NCBI RefSeq assembly: GCF_027023985.1
Contig: NZ_JALVTW010000009.1
Location: 1-50,854, forward strand
From: Persephonella sp.
Lineage (GTDB): Bacteria; Aquificota; Aquificia; Aquificales; Hydrogenothermaceae
Direction: 5' to 3'
Length of the DNA stretch: 50,854 nucleotides
Below, in pieces: positions 21,785-33,021 of this stretch. Both the position numbers and the translations under genes were made by a program. A model generated the notes under the pieces. That model was not told the DNA's origin, did no database searches, and saw only the letters and a list, made by a program, of their open reading frames with translations. The first letter of the stretch is position 1; each line of letters begins with the position of its first letter.

Positions 21785-23029
21785 TTAAATTTTGAACTGG
21801 AATCCAAGACCTACATAAGAAGCTTTAGCATCCTGTCCACTTCTATAATTTTCAACTTTTCCTGAAGTGTAATGAAGAATTACCTTTGCCCTTTGTTTCT
21901 GGATATACCAGTTAATACCGACATCCCAGTTTGTATTTTTCTTTTTCTTGTAAATAGAATTTCCATTGTCATCTGGATCAAATACACCGTAAGAAACAGC
22001 AGGTTGAATTATCTGTCCATTGCCCAGTTTAAAGTTATAGGCTGCTTTCACTTCCCATACCTTGTCTGTATAATCTGTGCCGTCTGACCAGTCCCTTTTG
22101 AGAATATCATACTCGGCTACAAAATCTACAGGACCGTAATTTGCAAGTATATCTGCACCATACATTTCATTTTTGTCAAATTCCTTTCCGCTACTGCCAA
22201 CTTTTCTATCAATACCTTCTCCCTGATGCGCATAGTTTAAGCCCAAGGTAATACCGTGTCTTCTACCGAAATATGTCTGTTTATAGCCTAATTTGTATTT
22301 TTTCATTTCCGGGTCTCCGATTGAAACAGCAACTCTGGCAGATACTAAAGGTGACCAATTTTTAGAGTCTGTGTAATTCTGGTCATCACCTACACCAAGG
22401 TTCCAGTTAAGACTCCATCCATGAGATTTATAGAGACCACCCCAGTTAACAAGGAATATTCTTCCGTTTCCTGAAGAAAATCCTGAATTTCCAGTGTCTG
22501 GTTTTCCAATAATATGCCTTCTCACATAAAAGTTTGGAAGTCCTTTTTCAAAAGAAATAACAGCAAAACCTGATGTGATACTTTCTTTTCCTATCTGTGG
22601 TCTGAAGTATCCCAGAGAGAAATTTGCCCATGTTTTGTCATAAGACCATGTGAAATAAGCATCCCATACCTCAAATTTTGAGTAGTTTAAACCTCCTGTT
22701 TTAACAGCACCCCTTGCAATATCAACAGGATTTAAGTCATCTCTACCAAGGTTGTCATGTGCAAACCATATCTTCCAGGACAGATTTTTCATAAGATGTC
22801 CTTTAAATCCAAATCTACCTCTTCTGATGTATATATCTCCTTTGTTTTCTTTTAGTCCTGTTGCACCGGGTACATCAACATTTGTTCCGTAAATGCCCCA
22901 TATCTGTCCCATAAGGAAAATCTCCAGGTCTTTACCTTCTCCAAAGTAGAACTTAGGACCGGCATTTGCTGTCCCTGTTATTAATGCCGCTGCTGTTAAT
23001 GATGCCACTGTTAAACCAACTTTTTTCAT
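21785..23029 (-). CDS. Outer-membrane porin, OprO/OprP-like
   Basis: 414 residues with a signal peptide (cleavage near ANAGPKF) and alternating amphipathic strands rich in aromatic residues, ending in a C-terminal GLGFQFKI typical of outer-membrane beta barrels. The pattern of YIRRGRFGFKGHLMKNLSWK resembles phosphate-selective porin O/P family members. In this operon it may admit thiosulfate or another anion, which is inference. A strong ribosome site (AAGGAGG) precedes the ATG. It lies between two DUF302-like genes, which may act with it. Confidence 0.82.
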   Translation of the reverse strand: MKKVGLTVASLTAAALITGTANAGPKFYFGEGKDLEIFLMGQIWGIYGTNVDVPGATGLKENKGDIYIRRGRFGFKGHLMKNLSWKIWFAHDNLGRDDLNPVDIARGAVKTGGLNYSKFEVWDAYFTWSYDKTWANFSLGYFRPQIGKESITSGFAVISFEKGLPNFYVRRHIIGKPDTGNSGFSSGNGRIFLVNWGGLYKSHGWSLNWNLGVGDDQNYTDSKNWSPLVSARVAVSIGDPEMKKYKLGYKQTYFGRRHGITLGLNYAHQGEGIDRKVGSSGKEFDKNEMYGADILANYGPVDFVAEYDILKRDWSDGTDYTDKVWEVKAAYNFKLGNGQIIQPAVSYGVFDPDDNGNSIYKKKKNTNWDVGINWYIQKQRAKVILHYTSGKVENYRSGQDAKASYVGLGFQFKI

Positions 23030-23046: not shown

Positions 23047-23676
23047 TTATTTAGAAGTAATTTCATCTATGATTTTTTTTAGCTGCAAATCATGTTTTTT
23101 AAGGATTTGTATTGCCTTAAGGTCAGGATTTCCCATATATCTGATGGCTATTGATGGTTTTACCATTCCTATAACCAGAAGGCCATCTTTATTTCTGTAT
23201 GTGTAAAGCCTGTATGGACAAAATCCTACAAGCTGGGGATTATGCCTGAGAACAAAATAACCATCTGATAATTTGCATATCAGATATATATTCATATCCT
23301 TCCAAAAATCCTTTCTTCCCTGCTCTTCCATACCTTTTGTCACATGGGAAACTTTAATAATTTTGAAATTTGCTTCTTCAAGGGCAGATTTTATAAGGAG
23401 GTCTGCCTCTTCCATATTCATATTAACTGTGGATTCATATATATCTGGAATTTCCCCCTCTTCTTCGTCAACAGGAGCAGGGTTGTATCCCCTATGGTTT
23501 TTGTTTTTAGATGTTTTCTGAGGTTTTTCTTTTGTCGCAACCACTTTTTTAGGTGGTATATATTCATCATCATCCTCATCTCTGGTAGACCATTCCATAG
23601 CTGTCACACAGCCTGTAAGGTTCAACAGTAGTCCTATTAGCAAAACCATAGAGAATACTTTTTTAATCAAGTGCAT
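23047..23676 (-). CDS. DUF302-like lipoprotein
   Basis: About 209 residues. A hydrophobic signal ends in a lipobox LNLTGC, so the protein is probably lipid-anchored. A charged, low-complexity linker (acidic run and Lys/Pro-rich stretch) follows, then a C-terminal domain like DUF302 (NMNMEEADLLIKSALEEANF, and GFCPYRLYTYR before VIGMVKPS). I use ATG 23676 next to AGGAGGT; an in-frame TTG two codons later gives better spacing. The longer frame to 23703 would run into soxB. It overlaps the soxB end by 10 bases. Function unknown. Confidence 0.78.
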   Translation of the reverse strand: MHLIKKVFSMVLLIGLLLNLTGCVTAMEWSTRDEDDDEYIPPKKVVATKEKPQKTSKNKNHRGYNPAPVDEEEGEIPDIYESTVNMNMEEADLLIKSALEEANFKIIKVSHVTKGMEEQGRKDFWKDMNIYLICKLSDGYFVLRHNPQLVGFCPYRLYTYRNKDGLLVIGMVKPSIAIRYMGNPDLKAIQILKKHDLQLKKIIDEITSK

Positions 23677-25406
23677 ATACCTCCTTTTTGGGGACATCCA
23701 CATTTCACATCCAGCACTTTAACGTTTGACTGGAGTGGTGGGTTAACTGTTTTATGCCTTTTTAAATAGTCAATTACAATATCATAAACAGGTCTGTGCC
23801 CTGGTCTTACCTTAGTTCCTGCTTTGTAAAGATTTCCGCCCCATGCTGATATTACATAAGACCTTTTTGGGTCTAAATCTTTACCGTTTACCTTAATATT
23901 CCTGAGTCTTTTACCTGCAGGTGCTCCCAATTTAATCTCATACTCAACCCCTAATAGCCTGCTCATATCTCCACCTTGCTGATAAAGGGGATTTTTGTTA
24001 AATACGTTGTCTGCAACATCTTCCAAAATCATTTTCAGTTTTTCACCAGTCATCTCAAATGTGTAAACATCCGGATATGTAATGGCTGTCATTTCGTAAA
24101 CATTATCAACTGTTATATCTTCTCCCGGTAAGATTGTTGTTCCCCAGCGATATCCTGGAGTAAACACTATCTCCGCATCTGTTTCTTCTTTGATTGCTTC
24201 GCTAATCACCCTGTCAAATGTTGAGTAGAATGTGTCTCTCTTGTATAGGATTTGTTCTGTTTTTGCCAGTTTTTGTGAAAGTTTTTTCTCATAAGGCTTG
24301 TATATAGACTCAACGAGTTTTTGCATATCAGGGTCAGGTTTTATAAAGTTAGAAGCTATAGGTATCAGTTTGTAATTCCACTTCCTAATCTTGCCGTTTT
24401 TTACATCAAGGTCTAATCTGCCTAAATATTTACCGTGTGACCCAGCAATAACAATCATCGTGTTGTTTACAAAAATTGGTTTTGGAGATGGGTCATGGGT
24501 ATGGCCACTGAATATTATGTCTATTCCTTTTACCATTTTTGCTAATGCCTGGTCTAATGCGAAACCATCATGGGAAAGTAAAACAACAAGGTCAACTTTT
24601 TTCTGGTTTCTAAGCTCATCTACAAACTGCTGGAGTCTTTCTGGCTGAATACCGAAAGTCCAGCCTTCTGTAAACTGTTTAGGATTTGCAATTGGTGTGT
24701 ATGGAAAAGCATTCCCGATAATTCCTATTTTTACACCGCCAACCTCTTTTATTACATAAGGAGAAAATACTAATTCTTCCCACATCTGGTCAGAAATATT
24801 CTGGGCTATAAAATCAGCTTTAAGGTGGTTTTCAACAAGTTCCTGAACCCTTTCTTTACCGTATGTAAACTCCCAGTGCCCTACCATAACATCTATTCCA
24901 AGGGCATTCTGGACATCTACTATTGCCTTTGCCTTTGTAAAAAGTGCAACAGCTGTGCCCTGCCATGTATCTCCTGAATCCATAAACAGAACTTTATCTT
25001 TCCCTCTTTCTGCAATTATCTGTTTTACCAGTGTTGCCATATAGGCAACACCACCCATTTTTCCGTATTTATGGGCAAGTTCAGGAAAATCAATATAGGT
25101 ATCAAAATAGGCTCGTAGTGTTCCCGGCTTTATACCGTAGTATTTCAGATAAGCCTCACCGCATAAAAATCCGGGATTTCCTACAAGGGATGGATGGGAT
25201 AAAAGGGTTGATGGTTCTCTCCAGTATAATGGCTTAAGATGGGCATGCATGTCGCATATATGCAGCAGTGTTACATTACCTACAGGTTTAAATTCCATTA
25301 ATTTTTCAGGTGAAAGTTTGCTCAGCTGGGCAAGGGCATTACCACTTGCCAGTGATAAACCGGCTATTGCAGCAAGTTCAAGGAAATCTCTTCTTGTTAA
25401 ATTCAT
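23667..25406 (-). CDS. soxB: Thiosulfohydrolase SoxB
   Basis: 579 residues with a Tat signal (TRRDFLELAAIAG). SoxB hydrolyses the terminal sulfonate from the sulfur chain carried on SoxY and releases sulfate in the periplasm. It belongs to the dimanganese 5'-nucleotidase superfamily; metal ligands are in CDMHAHLKP, MDSGDTWQGTA, GHWEFTYG, LLSHDGF and SGHTHDP. The C-terminal nucleotidase domain follows from about residue 350. The ribosome site GGGAGG precedes the ATG. It lies between soxA and the DUF302 lipoprotein. Confidence 0.96.
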   Translation of the reverse strand: MNLTRRDFLELAAIAGLSLASGNALAQLSKLSPEKLMEFKPVGNVTLLHICDMHAHLKPLYWREPSTLLSHPSLVGNPGFLCGEAYLKYYGIKPGTLRAYFDTYIDFPELAHKYGKMGGVAYMATLVKQIIAERGKDKVLFMDSGDTWQGTAVALFTKAKAIVDVQNALGIDVMVGHWEFTYGKERVQELVENHLKADFIAQNISDQMWEELVFSPYVIKEVGGVKIGIIGNAFPYTPIANPKQFTEGWTFGIQPERLQQFVDELRNQKKVDLVVLLSHDGFALDQALAKMVKGIDIIFSGHTHDPSPKPIFVNNTMIVIAGSHGKYLGRLDLDVKNGKIRKWNYKLIPIASNFIKPDPDMQKLVESIYKPYEKKLSQKLAKTEQILYKRDTFYSTFDRVISEAIKEETDAEIVFTPGYRWGTTILPGEDITVDNVYEMTAITYPDVYTFEMTGEKLKMILEDVADNVFNKNPLYQQGGDMSRLLGVEYEIKLGAPAGKRLRNIKVNGKDLDPKRSYVISAWGGNLYKAGTKVRPGHRPVYDIVIDYLKRHKTVNPPLQSNVKVLDVKCGCPQKGGICT

Positions 25407-25416
25407 CTTAGCCTCC

Positions 25417-26217
25417 CTATCTCCTTAGCCCAGGAGTTTTAAGTTCTGCTCCGTTTGAAAGTGATTTTACGTATAGTTCAAGGGCAACCATTTCTTTTGA
25501 ACCGAGGGGTAACTTTTTCTGACCACCCTGTTTCTGACATCCCTGAAATCTTTGTTGAAGTGTCTGAACTTTGTTTTTAGTCATTCTGAAAGCAGGCCAG
25601 TGGTCTGCTGCTGTTGTTCCCTTTATTCCGTTATATTCAAATCCAAGGGGTTTTAAGTGTTGCATTCTAAGAACTTTTCCTGCTGCAAATTCATGGCATA
25701 CCTGACAGGAAAGATTTCTTACACCTCTTTTCAAAGTAAATATGTATCTGCCGTATTTCAGATATTCCTTTGCTATAGGAGATTTTGTATCAACATTGAT
25801 TTTTGTTCCCTGTGCCAGATAGTAGAGATATGTTGTAAGGGCTGTATTTTCTTTACTTTTTAGAGAGAAAGGTTTCATATCCATATATTTGCTCTGGCAT
25901 ATCTGTATTCTCTGTTCCAGATTGATTATCATGCCGGCATCCTTGTCATATTTAGGATAATAAGCTGCTGCCGTAGCTACCCTGTCTTCCACTGAACCAT
26001 TTTTTGTGTGGCAGGATGCACAGGATATTTTTTTAGGCCCCATTGGCTTTTCAAATAGACTTCCTCCAACTTCCTCTGCAAAAACTTCTCCCGGGTTAAT
26101 ACCTTCCTGATATAGTTTCCAGTCTTCCTCAGATATTGCCTGACCAGCCTCCTCTGCTATAACACCAGAGGTAAGGCCTATACATAAGCCAAGCATACCA
26201 ATATATTTGAGTTTCAT
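25417..26217 (-). CDS. soxA: Sulfur oxidation c-type cytochrome SoxA
   Basis: 266 residues with a signal peptide (cleaved near IAEEAG). It pairs with SoxX to attach thiosulfate to the SoxY cysteine oxidatively. Two heme c motifs are visible, CASCH near residue 60 and CQVCH near residue 170, so this is the diheme type. The active-site cysteine is expected in RFQGCQKQGG near residue 230, and another paired Cys occurs in RIQICQSKY. It follows soxZ by 11 bases and precedes soxB by 10. Confidence 0.95.
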   Translation of the reverse strand: MKLKYIGMLGLCIGLTSGVIAEEAGQAISEEDWKLYQEGINPGEVFAEEVGGSLFEKPMGPKKISCASCHTKNGSVEDRVATAAAYYPKYDKDAGMIINLEQRIQICQSKYMDMKPFSLKSKENTALTTYLYYLAQGTKINVDTKSPIAKEYLKYGRYIFTLKRGVRNLSCQVCHEFAAGKVLRMQHLKPLGFEYNGIKGTTAADHWPAFRMTKNKVQTLQQRFQGCQKQGGQKKLPLGSKEMVALELYVKSLSNGAELKTPGLRR

Positions 26218-26228
26218 TTTTAAACCTC

Positions 26229-26558
26229 CTATTGTGGTTTAATCTGGATTGTTTTCTCTGTAACTTCTCCTTTGTTGTCTTTCCATACCATTTTTAATGG
26301 AGCTGCTTTATCTGCTTTCAGATAAAAGGAAAAGTATGGGTTTGCACTTACAGAGGCATTAACATCAATTGTTGTGACAAGGTCATTTCCGTAATAAACT
26401 TCCACCTTGTTTATATAGTGGGCGGGGATGATTTTCCCTGTTTTTTTGTCCTTTACCAGACCTGTATGCATAGGATGCATAATCACAGAATCTATTCTGA
26501 TTATGTCTCCTTTTTTATATCTTCTTGGTTTTACTTTGATTAATGCTGTTCTACCCAT
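26229..26558 (-). CDS. soxZ: Sulfur carrier partner SoxZ
   Basis: 109 residues, the immunoglobulin-like partner of SoxY. Segments typical of SoxZ are the start TALIKVKPRRYKKGDIIRI, HPMHTGLVKD, GKIIPAHYINKVEVYYG, and SANPYFSFYLKAD. It has no signal of its own and is exported as a complex with the Tat-targeted SoxY, as in the known systems. It starts 22 bases after soxY with a good ribosome site (AGGAGG). Confidence 0.96.
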   Translation of the reverse strand: MGRTALIKVKPRRYKKGDIIRIDSVIMHPMHTGLVKDKKTGKIIPAHYINKVEVYYGNDLVTTIDVNASVSANPYFSFYLKADKAAPLKMVWKDNKGEVTEKTIQIKPQ

Positions 26559-26580: not shown

Positions 26581-27039
26581 TTATCCACATCCACCGATTG
26601 TTACTTTGATTGGCTTTTTAGCCATGATAAATGAGCCATCTTTAAGCTCAGCAACAGCATAAACATTCATCGTTTTGGCCAGTCTTATCCTTGTTGCAAA
26701 ATAAGGTTTCCCATTTTGTGGTGTGAAATGGATACTACATGACCACGGGTCATGGTTTTTGTCTGCGAAAATATGAATTGCTTTTACATCTTCTATTGGT
26801 TTTGCTACCTCAACTTTAATTGGAACTACTGCACCGTTCTCTGCAATTGATGGTGCTATGAGCTTTACTTCTTTGGATTCTACAGGTGTTTTACCTTTTG
26901 TAATTTCTTTTAGGGCTTCCTCAAAACTTCTTTTCCTCAGCTCAGCTTTAGCCTGAAAACTATCCACCATCACCGAAGGACTTACCAGTATAACTGCTCC
27001 GGTGGCAGCAGCCACTTTAAGAAAATCTCTCCTTTTCAT
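26581..27039 (-). CDS. soxY: Sulfur carrier protein SoxY
   Basis: 152 residues with a Tat signal (MKRRDFLKVAAATG). SoxY carries pathway intermediates on the cysteine of its C-terminal swinging arm, here ending VTIGGCG. The usual core features are visible: AENGAVVPIKVEV, IHIFADKNHDPW, and TRIRLAKTMNVYAVAEL. The arm ends GGCG with no residues after, as is common. It lies between the thioredoxin-like gene and soxZ; SoxYZ forms the heterodimer on which SoxAX and SoxB act. Confidence 0.96.
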   Translation of the reverse strand: MKRRDFLKVAAATGAVILVSPSVMVDSFQAKAELRKRSFEEALKEITKGKTPVESKEVKLIAPSIAENGAVVPIKVEVAKPIEDVKAIHIFADKNHDPWSCSIHFTPQNGKPYFATRIRLAKTMNVYAVAELKDGSFIMAKKPIKVTIGGCG

Positions 27040-27051
27040 CTTTGACCTCCT

Positions 27052-27489
27052 TTATTTTTCTTCTGTAAAAAATTCATTCATGGATTTTTGTTTGTATGCT
27101 CCGGAGTAGAAATATCTGAGTATTTTTAGAAACTCTTCTTTACTCCATGCTCCAAAAAGACTCTTTATTTTTGTGCCGTCAGGTTTAACAAAATGGAATG
27201 TTGGAGTTCCCAGATATCCGTATTCTTCCTTTACAAATGCCCCATCTTCACTACACTTACGGACTTTCACAGGAATAAAATATCTATTCACTATTTCCTG
27301 CACTTCAGAGGATTTAAACGTGGTTGCTTCCATTTTTTTGCAGTAATGGCATTTTGGGGAGTAAATATAGATTAGAATTATCTTTTTCTCCTTTTGGGCT
27401 CTGGAAAATCCATCTTCCAGAGATAACCACTTTATATCTGCGTAAGAAATCCCTGCCATTAAAAAAAACAGAAGAACCACTTTTCTCAT
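27052..27489 (-). CDS. Exported thioredoxin-like protein of the sox operon (SoxW-like)
   Basis: 145 residues with a signal peptide (MRKVVLLFFLMAGISYA) and a thioredoxin fold: active site SPKCHYCKKME, and cis-Pro segment YLGTPTFHFV. It probably keeps the SoxY cysteine or the cytochrome cysteines reduced in the periplasm, the role proposed for SoxW/SoxS in other sox clusters. The CHYC sequence suits a reductant of the DsbD-linked type. It lies between soxX and soxY with gaps of only 3 and 12 bases. The exact family name is uncertain. Confidence 0.88.
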   Translation of the reverse strand: MRKVVLLFFLMAGISYADIKWLSLEDGFSRAQKEKKIILIYIYSPKCHYCKKMEATTFKSSEVQEIVNRYFIPVKVRKCSEDGAFVKEEYGYLGTPTFHFVKPDGTKIKSLFGAWSKEEFLKILRYFYSGAYKQKSMNEFFTEEK

Positions 27490-27492
27490 CTT

Positions 27493-28011
27493 TTACTCCA
27501 GAGAGAGGATAAATGCAGCAAGTGCACATACATCATCGTATGTAAGCTTTCCGGTTGTAAGATTAACTGTCATTATGTTGTAATAAGGTTCCTTTTTATA
27601 TTCAGGCGGAATTTGAACTCTGTAGTCTGCTATTCTCTGATAAAGCCATGAGATTGTCTTTTTCTGTCCTCCAAGATAAGGTGCCTTCATAAGTGTGTTT
27701 TTGTAATGGGCAAGGTTTGGTCCTATATTTCCACAACCTACAGAACCGGGTGCACAGTGACATGCAACACAGTTTGCAGCTTTTTTGTTGTTAAACAACT
27801 TTTTACCGATAGGTGCCATCTTTTTAATGAACTTAGGATTGTCCAGTTTACAGTTAGACGGAACTGCATAATGTCTGGGTCCCGGGGGAATATCTTTTAG
27901 CATGATTTCTTTTGCATCAGGATGCTCAAACTGAATCTGTCCAGCTTTGGAATCTGTTGAAAAAACAGATATTGTCAGGATACCTGATAAAAGCAGGTAT
28001 AGATACTTCAT
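27493..28011 (-). CDS. soxX: Sulfur oxidation c-type cytochrome SoxX
   Basis: About 172 residues with a signal peptide and one heme c motif (CVACH, followed by CAPGSVGCGNIGPNL). It accepts electrons from SoxA when thiosulfate is linked to SoxY. The likely Met ligand is in NIMTVNL. I start at ATG 28011: GGAGG lies 8 bases upstream, and the sigma-54 promoter would place the transcript start about 20 bases before the start codon. The longer frame upstream would overlap that promoter. First gene of the sox operon. Confidence 0.94.
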   Translation of the reverse strand: MKYLYLLLSGILTISVFSTDSKAGQIQFEHPDAKEIMLKDIPPGPRHYAVPSNCKLDNPKFIKKMAPIGKKLFNNKKAANCVACHCAPGSVGCGNIGPNLAHYKNTLMKAPYLGGQKKTISWLYQRIADYRVQIPPEYKKEPYYNIMTVNLTTGKLTYDDVCALAAFILSLE

Positions 28012-28043
28012 CTGCACAACCTCCTTTTTTCTTCTTTTAAATA

Positions 28044-28058
28044 GCAACAGATGTGCCA
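28044..28058 (-). promoter_or_regulatory. Sigma-54 promoter of the sox operon
   Basis: On the minus strand the sequence is TGGCAC-ATCTG-TTGC, followed by T. The invariant GG and GC pairs are exactly 10 bases apart, as sigma-54 RNA polymerase requires. Transcription should start near 28032, about 20 bases before the soxX start codon and just ahead of its ribosome site. A sigma-54 activator is encoded immediately upstream. Confidence 0.88.
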
Positions 28059-28130
28059 AAATTGATTAAACCGGTAAGTAATTGATGTTTAAGGAATTTT
28101 TCAGATGTAAAGGACAGGCTGATAGATTTC

Positions 28131-28146
28131 TGTCCCAAACGGAACA
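28131..28146. promoter_or_regulatory. Upstream activator site 1 of the sox promoter
   Basis: TGTCCC-AAAC-GGAACA, one mismatch from the perfect palindrome at 28164-28179. It is centred about 106 bases before the predicted sox transcript start, a usual distance for an NtrC-type activator. Confidence 0.72.
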
Positions 28147-28163
28147 ATTTATAAAAAAGGGAC

Positions 28164-28179
28164 TGTCCCAAATGGGACA
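28164..28179. promoter_or_regulatory. Upstream activator site 2 of the sox promoter
   Basis: Perfect palindrome TGTCCC-AAAT-GGGACA, centred 33 bp from site 1 (three helical turns, so both would face the same side of the DNA). It ends one base beyond the stop codon of the NtrC-type regulator gene. Confidence 0.78.
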
Positions 28180-28180
28180 A

Positions 28181-29515
28181 TCAGGCTTGGAGCAGACCGA
28201 AATTTTTCATCTTTGTTCTAAGTTGTTTTCTTGATATCCCCAGTTTTTGAGCTGCTTTTGTCTGATTCCAGTTTGTTTCTTCAAGGACTTTTAGTATTAC
28301 CCTTTTTTCAAGTTCAAGGAGATTTAGTTCTCCGGATATTTCCGGTGCCGAAGTTGAGGTTGTTTTATTTTTAGTTATCCTTGGAGGAAGATGCTCAGTT
28401 GTAATTACATCATACTGACACATAACAACTGCTCTTTCTATGGCATTTTCAAGCTCCCTGACATTACCTTTCCATTCATAATTCATAAGAACTTCCATTG
28501 CATCTTTATCAATATCAACAATATTTTTCCTGTTTATCTGACTGTATTTTTTTAGAAAATGTTTTGCCAGTAATGGAATGTCCTCTTTTCTTTCTCTGAG
28601 GGGAGGAACTTTTAGATGAACTACATTTATTCTGTAAAATAAATCCTCTCTAAATCTCCCTTCTGAGACCATCTTTTCAAGGTCTCTGTTAGTAGCTGCA
28701 ATAACTCTACATCTTACAGGAACAGTATTTGTTCCTCCAAGTCTGTAAAATTCTTTTTCCTGCAAAACCCTCAAAAGCTTAGCCTGTGAGATTGGGTCTA
28801 ACTCTCCAACTTCATCTAAAAATAATGTTCCATCTGCAGCCAGTTCTATTTTACCTTTTGCATTACCTGTTGCACCGGTATAAGCTCCTTTTTCATGGCC
28901 AAATAGTTCATTTTCAAAAAGTTCCACCGGAATTGCAGAACAGTTCAGGGCAACAAATGGTTTGTCCTTTCTGGAGGATAATTTATGTATTGCTTTTGCC
29001 ACAAGTTCCTTTCCTGTTCCGCTTTCTCCTTCTATTAGCACTGTTGATTCGCTTTTACTTACAATATCTATCTCTTTAAAAAGTTCTTTCATAAGCGGGG
29101 ATTTTCCTATTATCCCTGCAAACTCTTCTATATTTTCAAAACCATTTTTCTCGGTTTTTTCTATAAGAAAATGAATAATCTTCAAGAGATTTTCTGCATC
29201 TATAGGCTTTGATATATAATGGGATGCTCGTTTTCTCATTGCCTCAACGGCACCATCTATTGAGCCATAGGCGGTTATCATAACAAAGGGAGTTTCCTTG
29301 TCCTTTTCCCTAAAATACTGAAGAATCTCCATTCCTGTTCCATCTGGTAATCTGTAATCACTCAAGATAATATCAAATCTACCGGCTGCAATATGTTTTA
29401 AAGCTTCCTTTTTGTTCTCGGCAGTTGTTACCTGAAAATTCTGGTCTTCAAGGAACTTTTTAATTACTTTAAGAATGCTTTGCTCATCATCAATTAATAA
29501 AACTCTGTAACCCAT
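28181..29515 (-). CDS. NtrC-type sigma-54-dependent response regulator
   Basis: About 444 residues. Receiver domain at residues 1-120 (phosphoacceptor Asp 53 in LSDYRLPDG, acidic pair DD at 9-10), AAA+ ATPase domain (Walker A GESGTGKE; sigma-54 contact loop GAYTGA in place of GAFTGA; LFLDEVGEL), and a C-terminal FIS-type helix-turn-helix (NWNQTKAAQKLGISRKQLR). The ATG at 29515 has GGAG upstream. It is the likely activator of the sox operon: the sigma-54 promoter and twin palindromes lie directly downstream. Its partner is probably the kinase at 31432-33021. The Phe-to-Tyr change in the loop is known in some activators. Confidence 0.94.
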   Translation of the reverse strand: MGYRVLLIDDEQSILKVIKKFLEDQNFQVTTAENKKEALKHIAAGRFDIILSDYRLPDGTGMEILQYFREKDKETPFVMITAYGSIDGAVEAMRKRASHYISKPIDAENLLKIIHFLIEKTEKNGFENIEEFAGIIGKSPLMKELFKEIDIVSKSESTVLIEGESGTGKELVAKAIHKLSSRKDKPFVALNCSAIPVELFENELFGHEKGAYTGATGNAKGKIELAADGTLFLDEVGELDPISQAKLLRVLQEKEFYRLGGTNTVPVRCRVIAATNRDLEKMVSEGRFREDLFYRINVVHLKVPPLRERKEDIPLLAKHFLKKYSQINRKNIVDIDKDAMEVLMNYEWKGNVRELENAIERAVVMCQYDVITTEHLPPRITKNKTTSTSAPEISGELNLLELEKRVILKVLEETNWNQTKAAQKLGISRKQLRTKMKNFGLLQA

Positions 29516-29617: not shown

Positions 29618-30088
29618 ATGAAAAAATTAGTTTTATTGGTTTTTCTGCTGATTATTTCTTTTTCTAAAGGAGAAGAGCAGGATGTGGCAAAGATAGTAAT
29701 AGACTTTCGTTCAGGGGATTTACATATATTTGAAAACTATCTGATAAACGGTCTTGCAAACAATATCCAGTATTATAGGGACAACCTTAAGGAGTTAAAA
29801 GTCGTAGTAGTGGTACATGGAGATGGGTATAAATTTTTCATAAAAAATTTAGACAAATCACCTTATAAGGATGAAGTTCAACTTAAGAAAAAACAGAAGG
29901 AGTTAAAGGAAAGATTAGAAAATCTGGTGAAATTTTATGGAGTGAGATTTGAGATGTGTAAGGCAGGAATGAAGGCAAGGGGAATATCTGAGGATAATAT
30001 CTATCCATTTGTGAAACCTGTTTATTCAGCACTTGTTGGGCTTGTTAACTGGCAAAACAAAGGATATGCATACATGGTTTTCCAGTAA
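29618..30088 (+). CDS. Exported DsrE-like protein 1
   Basis: 156 residues with a signal peptide (MKKLVLLVFLLIISFSKG). The mature part matches the DsrE/DsrF/TusD-like fold: ELKVVVVVHGDGYKFF, then GVRFEMCKAGMKARGI with the conserved Cys 114, and ending VGLVNWQNKGYAYMVF. Cytoplasmic relatives carry sulfur as a persulfide on the equivalent cysteine; here the protein is exported. Ribosome site AGGAGG. It is the first gene of an operon with a second DsrE-like protein, a binding protein and a histidine kinase, divergent from the sox activator. A sulfur-binding role in sensing is inference. Confidence 0.83.
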   Translation: MKKLVLLVFLLIISFSKGEEQDVAKIVIDFRSGDLHIFENYLINGLANNIQYYRDNLKELKVVVVVHGDGYKFFIKNLDKSPYKDEVQLKKKQKELKERLENLVKFYGVRFEMCKAGMKARGISEDNIYPFVKPVYSALVGLVNWQNKGYAYMVFQ

Positions 30089-30100
30089 GGAGGATTTAAA

Positions 30101-30613
30101 ATGAGAGTGTTAATTGCTTTTATGGTCTTTGTTTTTATGGTTTTTGCAGCAGAAAAAGGTGCAAAGCTGGAAATATCTGACAGCACATATCCTTCTTTGA
30201 AAGTGGTTTACGACTGGAATCTATCCAGACCTGAAGATGTAGATAAGGCCTTAAATTTTATCAGCAACCATATAAAAGCATATAACCAGTATGCACCATT
30301 GGAAGAGGTCGAGATAGTTGTTGTTAGTCACGGTGCAGAAGTTCCTGTTTTTGCTAAACAGAATGAAAAATATTTCAAAAAAATAGTTGAGAGGATTAAA
30401 AACTTTCATGACTCTTATGGTGTAAAGTTCTACATCTGCTATAACGCTGCAAGGGCTTTCGGTTTTGATAAGGAAGATTTTCCCTCTTATGTGATACTCA
30501 CACCTGCTGGGGTTGCAAAACTGGCAGCACTGCAGGAAGAAGGATATCGTCTTGTTCCGGCTGTAGTTCATGATTTTGAACCTATAAAAAAGAAATATGG
30601 TAAGCAAAAATGA
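30101..30613 (+). CDS. Exported DsrE-like protein 2
   Basis: 170 residues with a signal peptide (MRVLIAFMVFVFMVFAA). Same fold as its neighbour: EVEIVVVSHGAEVPVF, GVKFYICYNAARAFGF with Cys 113 at the same place, and VAKLAALQEEGYRLV. The two proteins have diverged strongly but keep the cysteine, which suggests a pair or heteromer rather than a recent duplicate. It overlaps the next gene by 4 bases. Confidence 0.82.
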   Translation: MRVLIAFMVFVFMVFAAEKGAKLEISDSTYPSLKVVYDWNLSRPEDVDKALNFISNHIKAYNQYAPLEEVEIVVVSHGAEVPVFAKQNEKYFKKIVERIKNFHDSYGVKFYICYNAARAFGFDKEDFPSYVILTPAGVAKLAALQEEGYRLVPAVVHDFEPIKKKYGKQK

Positions 30614-31428
30614 GACCTGCTGCCGCTTTCCTTTTGTTTTTTTCCTTGTTTTTTTCCTCCTTAGCTTCTGAACGGCTGCTTCTGGCCGTTCTTTCTTCAG
30701 GAAGTCCTGTTCAGGAATATAAAAAATTCAAAAATTTGTCTGCTTACCTTGAGGAAAAACTGAATAAAAAAGTTGAGCTTAAAATATTTGGCAATTATGA
30801 GAATCTATTGAGATATTACGATGAGCATTTTGTAGATGTTTCTATAGTATGCCCTGTTGTTTACTACAAAATACTTGAAAAACATAAAGTTGATGCAGCT
30901 GCAGTAGTTAAGATTAAAGGGGATATTATGGAAGCAGGGGTAATTGTTGCAAGGAAAAATGGAGATATATCCTCCATAAAAGATTTAAAAGGTAAAAAGA
31001 TAACCCTTGGCAGTAGTATATGTGCCAGTAACTGTATAATGCCCCTCTATGTTCTAAGCAAAAATGGCATTAAATACACAGATATATCTGATATGTGGAG
31101 TTCTGGAAGCGATAGGGCAGCAATACTTGCCGTCATCTCAGGTCTGGCAGATGCAGCAGGAGTCAAGGAAGAAAGTGCTTATAAATTTTTAGGAAGGGGC
31201 ATAAAAATAATTGCCAAATCCCCCTCTGTCCCAAGATATATTGTAGTAATCAACAAAGCTTTACCTGAAAAAGAACAAAAACAGATAAAAAATGCTCTCT
31301 TTTCTTTGAAAGAAAAAAATCTACTTGGAAAAATAGGTATTGACGGATTTGAAAGACCAAGTCCTGAAATGTTCAGTATAGTTAAGGATTATAATGATAT
31401 ACTATCTCAATACCCATTACTGAAGTAA
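30610..31428 (+). CDS. PhnD-like periplasmic binding protein with a CxxxC motif
   Basis: 272 residues with a signal peptide. The family (phosphate/phosphite/phosphonate-type binding proteins) is recognised from LLAVLSSGSPVQEYKKF, FVDVSIVCPVVYY and GDISSIKDLKGKKITLGS. Where transport-type members have a Ser/Gly-rich anion-binding loop, this one reads SSICASNCIMP, giving Cys 138 and Cys 142; Cys 81 is also close to the expected ligand pocket. No permease or ATPase gene is near. Binding proteins of this family without transport partners often deliver a signal to a kinase, and the next gene is one. Ligand unknown; an oxyanion or sulfur compound is plausible. Confidence 0.83.
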   Translation: MRPAAAFLLFFSLFFSSLASERLLLAVLSSGSPVQEYKKFKNLSAYLEEKLNKKVELKIFGNYENLLRYYDEHFVDVSIVCPVVYYKILEKHKVDAAAVVKIKGDIMEAGVIVARKNGDISSIKDLKGKKITLGSSICASNCIMPLYVLSKNGIKYTDISDMWSSGSDRAAILAVISGLADAAGVKEESAYKFLGRGIKIIAKSPSVPRYIVVINKALPEKEQKQIKNALFSLKEKNLLGKIGIDGFERPSPEMFSIVKDYNDILSQYPLLK

Positions 31429-31431
31429 AGT

Positions 31432-33021
31432 ATGAGACTAAATTTTATTAAAAAACTATCTATAAGATGGAAAGTAGCCCTTGCCACATCATTTTATATA
31501 CTACTTGTTCTTTTAGGGGCAATTTTTTTCACAGCCTTTAGCTTTGAGCAAAAACTACTCAAAGAAAAAAATCAGAGCATTGTTGAAAATATCAAAAACA
31601 TAATAGAAAGCTATAAAGATAGCTTCGTCCTGAAAAATCTTGACAGAATTGATGAAATGACCCGGAAAATTGACAATCTACCCTCTGTATTTTTTGTCAG
31701 AGTGCTGGACGCAGAAGGAAGGGTTATAGGAGATACAGACCTGTCAAATCTTGGAACTATAAAAAAGGAGCTCCTGAAAAATATTAAAGGCAAGCCCCAG
31801 ATTAAAAAGAAAGAAAATATAGTTTCATTTTACTATCCGGTCAAAGTAGATTCAGATACTATAGGCTATGTGCTAACAAAATACGACCTGAATATACTCA
31901 AAGCAACTATAGACAGGGAAATTTTTAAGATACTTGTTCAAACCTTTGTAATTGCTGCCATGGTTATCGGTGCCTCATTTTTAGGTGTTTTTCTAATATC
32001 AGGACATATGGTTAAGCCCCTTATAGACCTGAAAAATAAAATATCCGGAATTACAACATCCTATATAGACAGTTCAAAACTTGACCTTAAACCTGTTATA
32101 TATACAAAAGATAAGAACTGTGTAAAATCCCTTTCCGGAGAATGCTGGCTTGTTTCAGAAAAAGGCAGTGAGATACTTCTTGATTTAGGGGATATCGCTC
32201 TCAAAGAATGTTCAACCTGTGAAAAATTTAAACAGCTTTCAGGGGACGAGATACAGCAGTTAAACTACTCATTTTATATGATGGTCGCATCTTTAAAGGA
32301 TTATCTTAGAAAATTAGATGAAGCCCATAGAGAACGGGAAACTCTCAATTGTATGGCAACTATGGGAGAAATGAGTGCAAAAATAGCCCATGAAGTAAAA
32401 AATGCCCTGTATGCTATAGGAAATGCGGCAAATTACCTGAGAAACAATATAGACAATGAACTGGTTAAAGAGTTTTCAGGGGTCATAAAGGACGAAGTTA
32501 ACAGACTTAACAAAATGACAGTATCATTCCTGAACTTTTCAAAACTGATAGAGCCACAATTCCAGCCTGGAAACATAAACCAAGAGATTAAAAATTCAGC
32601 TATGCTTCTAAAACCGGATATGGATGATGAAGGAATTCAGCTCATTATAGAAACAGACCCAAATATGCCGGAATTTGAGTTTGATAAAAATCTTATTAAG
32701 CAGATGCTTTTTAATCTGATATTAAACAGTATAGATGCCCTGAAAAACAAAAAAGGTGATAAATTTATAAAAATAAAAACCGAATATATAAAACTAAGGG
32801 ACAGGGATATAGCAAGAATAATTATTGAGGATAATGGAGAGGGAATTTCCCGGGAAAATAGGGAAAAAATATTTAAGCCCTTCTTCACCACAAAACAAAA
32901 AGGAACGGGACTGGGACTGCCTATGGTTTATAAAATTGTTTTCAGCCATAATGGAACAATAAGCATGGATTCAGAAGAAGGAAAAGGCACAATATTTACT
33001 ATAGATTTAAGGATAAAATGA
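31432..33021 (+). CDS. Membrane histidine kinase with cysteine-rich linker
   Basis: 529 residues. TM1 at about 14-37, an extracytoplasmic sensor region 38-165, TM2 at about 167-192, a HAMP-like linker, then a cysteine module (Cys 230, 238, 260, 263: KNC, GECW, KECSTC) before the kinase core. The phosphoacceptor is His 320 in KIAHEVKNALYAIGN. The catalytic domain has DNGEGIS and TGLGLPMVYKIV, the NtrB-like type. The module recalls a CW...C..C pattern that I remember from other kinase linkers, where its role is unclear. It probably phosphorylates the NtrC-type regulator encoded divergently. Confidence 0.92.
   Translation: MRLNFIKKLSIRWKVALATSFYILLVLLGAIFFTAFSFEQKLLKEKNQSIVENIKNIIESYKDSFVLKNLDRIDEMTRKIDNLPSVFFVRVLDAEGRVIGDTDLSNLGTIKKELLKNIKGKPQIKKKENIVSFYYPVKVDSDTIGYVLTKYDLNILKATIDREIFKILVQTFVIAAMVIGASFLGVFLISGHMVKPLIDLKNKISGITTSYIDSSKLDLKPVIYTKDKNCVKSLSGECWLVSEKGSEILLDLGDIALKECSTCEKFKQLSGDEIQQLNYSFYMMVASLKDYLRKLDEAHRERETLNCMATMGEMSAKIAHEVKNALYAIGNAANYLRNNIDNELVKEFSGVIKDEVNRLNKMTVSFLNFSKLIEPQFQPGNINQEIKNSAMLLKPDMDDEGIQLIIETDPNMPEFEFDKNLIKQMLFNLILNSIDALKNKKGDKFIKIKTEYIKLRDRDIARIIIEDNGEGISRENREKIFKPFFTTKQKGTGLGLPMVYKIVFSHNGTISMDSEEGKGTIFTIDLRIK

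Follow-up and report, generated by a model that had tools for sequence, protein, structure and literature searches.

SoxR, a member of the ArsR family, is a repressor of sox. In Thermus, sox is under the control of TTHA1953, a CsoR-family protein, as described in PMC10318464. The closest counterpart of the locus analysed here is the TspS/TspR system of Acidithiobacillus caldus, an unrelated bacterium of acid mines, in which, according to a review of Acidithiobacillus (PMC6335251, citing Li et al. 2017), phosphorylated TspR binds the UAS TGTCCCAAATGGGACA of the sox-II cluster; the review also names thiosulfate as the proposed signal for TspS. SoxR and TTHA1953 likewise control sox transcription, but they belong to other regulator families and act without sigma-54.

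The window, a 50.9-kb stretch of DNA from Persephonella, a thermophilic sulfur bacterium, contains a locus that is very probably a TspS/TspR sigma-54 switch for its sox operon, as judged from sequence comparison. The core of this finding is thus a known system, here in Aquificota. The features of the locus, in window coordinates, are:

21785..23029, minus strand: porin (Porin_O_P), end of the sox cluster
23047..23703, minus strand: DUF302 lipoprotein-like gene in the sox cluster
23667..25406, minus strand: soxB (TIGR04486)
25417..26217, minus strand: soxA (TIGR04484)
26229..26558, minus strand: soxZ (TIGR04490)
26581..27039, minus strand: soxY (TIGR04488)
27052..27489, minus strand: thioredoxin-like gene, soxW-type
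27493..28011, minus strand: soxX (TIGR04485, over cut-off)
28011..28043, minus strand: predicted soxX leader, with AGGAGG at 28025-28020, ATG at 28011-28009 and a predicted start of transcription at about 28033
28058 to 28044, minus strand: sigma-54 -24/-12 promoter of soxX, TGGCACATCTGTTGC, with GG-N10-GC spacing, conserved in relatives
28131-28146, plus-strand reading: inner TspR dyad (predicted UAS), TGTCCCAAACGGAACA, one mismatch
28164-28179, plus-strand reading: outer TspR dyad (predicted UAS), TGTCCCAAATGGGACA, perfect
28181..29515, minus strand: tspR, encoding a response regulator (receiver domain, sigma-54 AAA+ domain, Fis-type HTH) whose recognition helix is LGISRKQLRTKMKN
29618..30088, plus strand: exported DsrE-like protein 1 (PF02635)
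30101..30613, plus strand: exported DsrE-like protein 2 (PF02635)
30610..31428, plus strand: "TspX", PhnD/AioX-like periplasmic binding protein (PF12974; matches to ArrX and PtxB), proposed oxyanion sensor, a neighbour of tspS elsewhere too
31432..33021, plus strand: tspS, histidine kinase in the membrane, its linker rich in cysteines (C230, C238, C260, C263)

The operon is ordered soxX-W-Y-Z-A-B, followed by the genes for the DUF302 protein and the porin. tspR lies directly upstream in the same direction, and the DsrE-like pair, tspX and tspS are divergent from it. On the minus strand, the region before soxX reads TGTCCCATTTGGGACA-N17-TGTTCCGTTTGGGACA-N72-TGGCACATCTGTTGC-...-AGGAGG-N8-ATG, and we place the soxX start at the ATG at 28011 rather than at the mechanically called TTG at 28059. 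The predicted start of transcription puts the two dyads at about -105 and -138. The initial annotation had described this architecture from the letters of the window, and its sigma-54 element with exact GG-N10-GC spacing is correct to the base. Its two 16-bp palindromes, one with a single mismatch and with centres 33 bp apart, were found as described, as was the activator gene one base from the outer palindrome (the regulator ORF ends at 28181 and the dyad at 28179). The rpoN gene on which such a promoter would depend is present in the genome of the window (G000, 1.90 Mb, 99.97% complete) on contig C29 (E 2.3e-58).

We regard it as very improbable that the promoter and dyads are chance matches or functionless relics. 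A dyad with up to two mismatches is by itself common by chance, at 42 per genome and with no excess over a reversed control, and such dyads were accordingly rejected as a genome-wide regulon. The full architecture, a sigma-54 site with two dyads within 150 bp, nevertheless has a single instance in the window and was produced by none of 100 dinucleotide-preserving shuffles, and across eight genera its spacing is kept while its sequence changes. The window holds no strict TGGCAY-N5-TTGC other than TGGCACATCTGTTGC, against an expectation of 0.29 for each dinucleotide shuffle, and the outer dyad is the only perfect dyad in the genome, where the next best carry one mismatch.

A full-text literature search for TGTCCCAAATGGGACA matched a single paper, the Acidithiobacillus review (PMC6335251), and the outer dyad is identical to the published A. 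caldus TspR UAS at 16 of 16 positions. Because of this identity, we assign the locus to the TspS/TspR-sigma-54 sox switch known since 2017. The initial annotation had held that sigma-54 control of sox would be a different logic; since that control was already reported for A. caldus, the novelty is lower than it had estimated. An Acidithiobacillaceae locus (L206), probably from A. caldus, has the order phnD-like-tspS-tspR-TGTCCCAAATGGGACA-sigma-54 site-soxX-Y-Z-A-B. It thus has in common with the window the 16-bp site, a sigma-54 promoter before soxX, an NtrC-type regulator directly upstream of the sox operon and a PhnD-like gene adjoining tspS. The TspR of the window is 44-45% identical overall to Acidithiobacillus TspR proteins, and the recognition helix LGISRKQLRTKMKN is identical in the window, L206, L211 and others. 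The kinases are homologous at 26% identity, but tspS of the window is divergent from tspR rather than directly upstream of it, is preceded by the two exported DsrE-like genes, and encodes a cysteine-rich linker that Acidithiobacillus TspS lacks. At the A. caldus-type locus, one dyad is present within one mismatch, against two in the window, which have centres 33 bp apart and lie closer to the promoter. In the Acidithiobacillus relatives L210 (5042-5057, 3598-4944) and L161 (6849-6984, 5397-6740), a TspR-type dyad and a sigma-54-like site precede a gene for an exported protein of ~448 residues that has no Pfam match and looks porin-like by eye.

Among 136 Aquificota genomes searched, strong TspR orthologs (cut-off E<=1e-110) are confined to the family of the window, in 26 genomes at 457-973 bits, one of them a pseudogene; we take this family to be the Hydrogenothermaceae, as the named loci among the TspR-bearing records are Persephonella, Sulfurihydrogenibium and Hydrogenothermaceae. 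Twenty-three genomes had tspR, soxX and enough upstream sequence for comparison. All 23 contain the sigma-54 site (15 with no mismatch, eight with one), and in 20 a dyad departs from TGTCC-N6-GGACA by no more than two mismatches; the palindromes are therefore present upstream of sox in close relatives of the window. The other three (G066-G068) carry a degenerate dyad pair with three mismatches, 33 bp apart. Within a pair, the dyads keep a distance of 21-23 or 32-35 bp, about two or three helical turns, and promoter and dyads are conserved across eight genera of the family.

G101, which carries sox and is the only complete relative lacking a TspR ortholog at the cut-off, has neither element at sox, the best matches carrying three mismatches. 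We read this genome as a natural experiment in which regulator, operator and promoter have been lost jointly. In the sister family, 30 soxX loci that lack a TspR of this kind have upstream stretches, taken approximately, that contain no sigma-54 site or dyad with fewer than two mismatches. Some further sites (L095-L103) and the perfect dyads of Aquificaceae have no sigma-54 partner at the right spacing and were taken as chance. In G079 (L091, L336), 11 in-frame stops interrupt tspR and soxX too has decayed, but the dyad, the sigma-54 site and most sox genes are still there; we interpret this as a sox locus in decay.

These comparisons bear on a second alternative, namely that TspR is a mere neighbour and the dyads are the operator of another regulator, such as an ArsR repressor of the SoxR type or a different sigma-54 activator. 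NtrC-type genes are common, and the same dyad and promoter stand before a small RNA in G101 and G104. Neither of these genomes has a TspR ortholog at the cut-off, and they may therefore use a further regulator that recognises this site. At the sox operon of the window, however, such a regulator is improbable: the dyad is identical to the reported TspR site, dyads co-occur and are jointly lost with tspR, regulators picked by the DNA motif only have a helix in common, and the listed ORFs surrounding the operon include none recognised as ArsR-type. The proposal of the initial annotation that this activator switches sox is likewise supported by the identity of the dyad, its conservation in the family, the joint loss in G101 and the invariant helix.

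The helix was recovered from DNA in a blind scan of 84,980 genomes, which used only the dyad and a sigma-54 site with 51-111 bp between them and yielded 67 stretches. Most of these, being without TspR or sox neighbours, are probably chance. Beyond the known groups, the scan picked up sox-like clusters in Candidatus Acididesulfobacter (L154) and a deltaproteobacterial MAG (L129), as well as kinase-regulator pairs from Desulfobulbaceae/Desulfobacterales and from Nitrospirota. The regulators beside the motif carry LGISRKQLRTKMKN (most) or a near copy of it, ISRKQ[LI][RSI]TKMK[NKH], with one ITRKQ, a helix unlike that of all paralogs examined. In a tree, the helix-bearing regulators fall on one side, but the deep node that unites the TspR of the window with the Acidithiobacillus proteins is weakly supported (65/92), and the Acidithiobacillus branch also takes in a long-branch paralog (L181). 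In view of this weak basal support, a shared ancestry of all helix-bearing regulators is likely rather than proven. Two further targets from the scan look sulfur-related: L151 is a rhodanese by Pfam, and L164, judged by eye only, resembles a YeeE/YedE membrane protein.

The sensing step resembles systems known from arsenic and sulfur oxyanions. AioX-AioS-AioR and ArrX-ArrS-ArrR each combine a periplasmic PhnD-fold protein, a membrane kinase and a regulator upstream of an RpoN promoter (PMC5908839), and PF12974 (PhnD-like) domains sense tetrathionate in TtrS and thiosulfate in ThsS (PMC5408782). The PF12974 module is fused to the kinase in TtrS/TtrR and ThsS/ThsR, whereas in the window it is a separate protein. 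The regulators TtrR and ThsR are not known to be sigma-54 activators. The solved relatives of TspX include ArrX (E 6e-11) and PtxB, and its C81 is aligned with a cysteine in a loop of ArrX. The ligand of AioX is contacted by C106, a residue conserved among AioX, ArrX and ArxX (PMC5908839); C81 would occupy the same position, and both C81 and C138 are kept in TspX of Aquificota and Acidithiobacillus. The identity of TspX to the Aio and Arr proteins is low, and here the target is sox and the ligand presumably a sulfur oxyanion.

The adjacency of tspS to a PhnD/AioX-like gene suggests a three-component sensor like AioXSR, which is our best guess for TspX-TspS-TspR. Alternatively, and for the sensing step only, TspS may sense alone through its own periplasmic domain or its cysteine-rich linker, the PhnD-like and DsrE-like genes being unrelated neighbours. 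The linker cysteines, between the membrane part and HisKA, are conserved in Aquificota, fuller in Nitrospirota and absent in Acidithiobacillus, and the linker is a possible redox or metal input; moreover, the role of the separate protein is putative, and ThsS has a PhnD-like domain built into the kinase (PMC5408782). We nonetheless consider sensing by TspS alone rather unlikely, since, although gene order varies, a PhnD-like gene adjoins tspS in most readable Aquificota loci, in two loci of Nitrospirota and in Acidithiobacillus, and AioX-AioS-AioR provides a precedent (PMC5908839).

With TspX as the candidate sensor, the switch would operate as follows. A periplasmic signal, most likely thiosulfate and possibly bound by TspX, would render TspS active, and TspS would then phosphorylate TspR. 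TspR would bind the two TGTCCC-N4-GGGACA dyads on one face of the DNA (33 bp corresponding to three turns), ~105 and 138 bp upstream of the start, and loop to sigma-54 RNA polymerase at TGGCAC-N5-TTGC. Use of ATP by TspR would open the promoter, allowing transcription of soxX and the genes behind it. Within this scheme, thiosulfate as the ligand, the phosphorylation and the sensor role of TspX are the parts that we infer.

Dyad and promoter sites away from sox, in relatives outside the genus of the window, led to a conserved small-RNA-like element. It lies behind an O-methyltransferase gene in genera g2, g3, g6, g7, g9 and g10 and elsewhere in G077; a match in G074 is tentative. The loci are L245:1407-1515 (minus strand), L252, L254, L257, L262-L266, L276, L279, L093, L247 and L305, and tentatively L307. 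The element comprises two dyads or half-dyads, a sigma-54 site TTGG[CT]AT-N5/6-TT[GT], a strong terminator and unpaired stretches rich in C, and would specify an RNA of ~75-105 nt with the unpaired stretches CCUGCUGCUA and CUACCUCCUCC, which could pair with ribosome-binding sites. At the loci listed, the element shows the stretches CCTGCTGCTA and CTACCTCCTCC together with the terminator. The terminator stem differs between genera yet pairs throughout (compensatory pairs), and an Rfam search of the loci matched no family. At L282/L247 (G097:C1:523073-526342), a transposase gene stands between a TspR dyad and the small RNA promoter, ~1 kb apart.

Covariance hits in the genome of the window itself (G000 C37 and C29, E ~0.015) were rejected as false or as another C-rich RNA, of sigma-70 type. 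The genus of the window has a conserved C-rich RNA motif distinct from the small RNA element (L310, at G000:C29:14029-14150 on the minus strand, L300, L302, L303, L306, L308 and L309). In it, TTGACA..TATATT is followed by CACCTCCCCCCTCCCTCCCCC and a terminator, and it lies upstream of an ORF whose product begins M[IF]PIKDNIP.

The putative small RNA probably belongs to the same circuit as TspR. It is one of two unreported additions to the known system: this RNA of sister genera, apparently in that circuit, and a sensor partner that is likely to bind thiosulfate. The broader proposal, that the TspR-type signal also drives this unreported small RNA and that TGTCCC-N4-GGGACA together with RKQLRTKMKN marks a wide family of sulfur-sensing regulators in several phyla, seems to us evenly balanced between true and false.

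Two distant phyla, Aquificota and Acidithiobacillia, thus appear to use the same sox switch down to the 16-bp operator and the helix that reads it. A testable prediction is that these chemolithotrophs sense thiosulfate through a free AioX-like protein. If the broader proposal is true, thiosulfate sensing would have both a transcriptional arm, acting on sox, and a post-transcriptional one.
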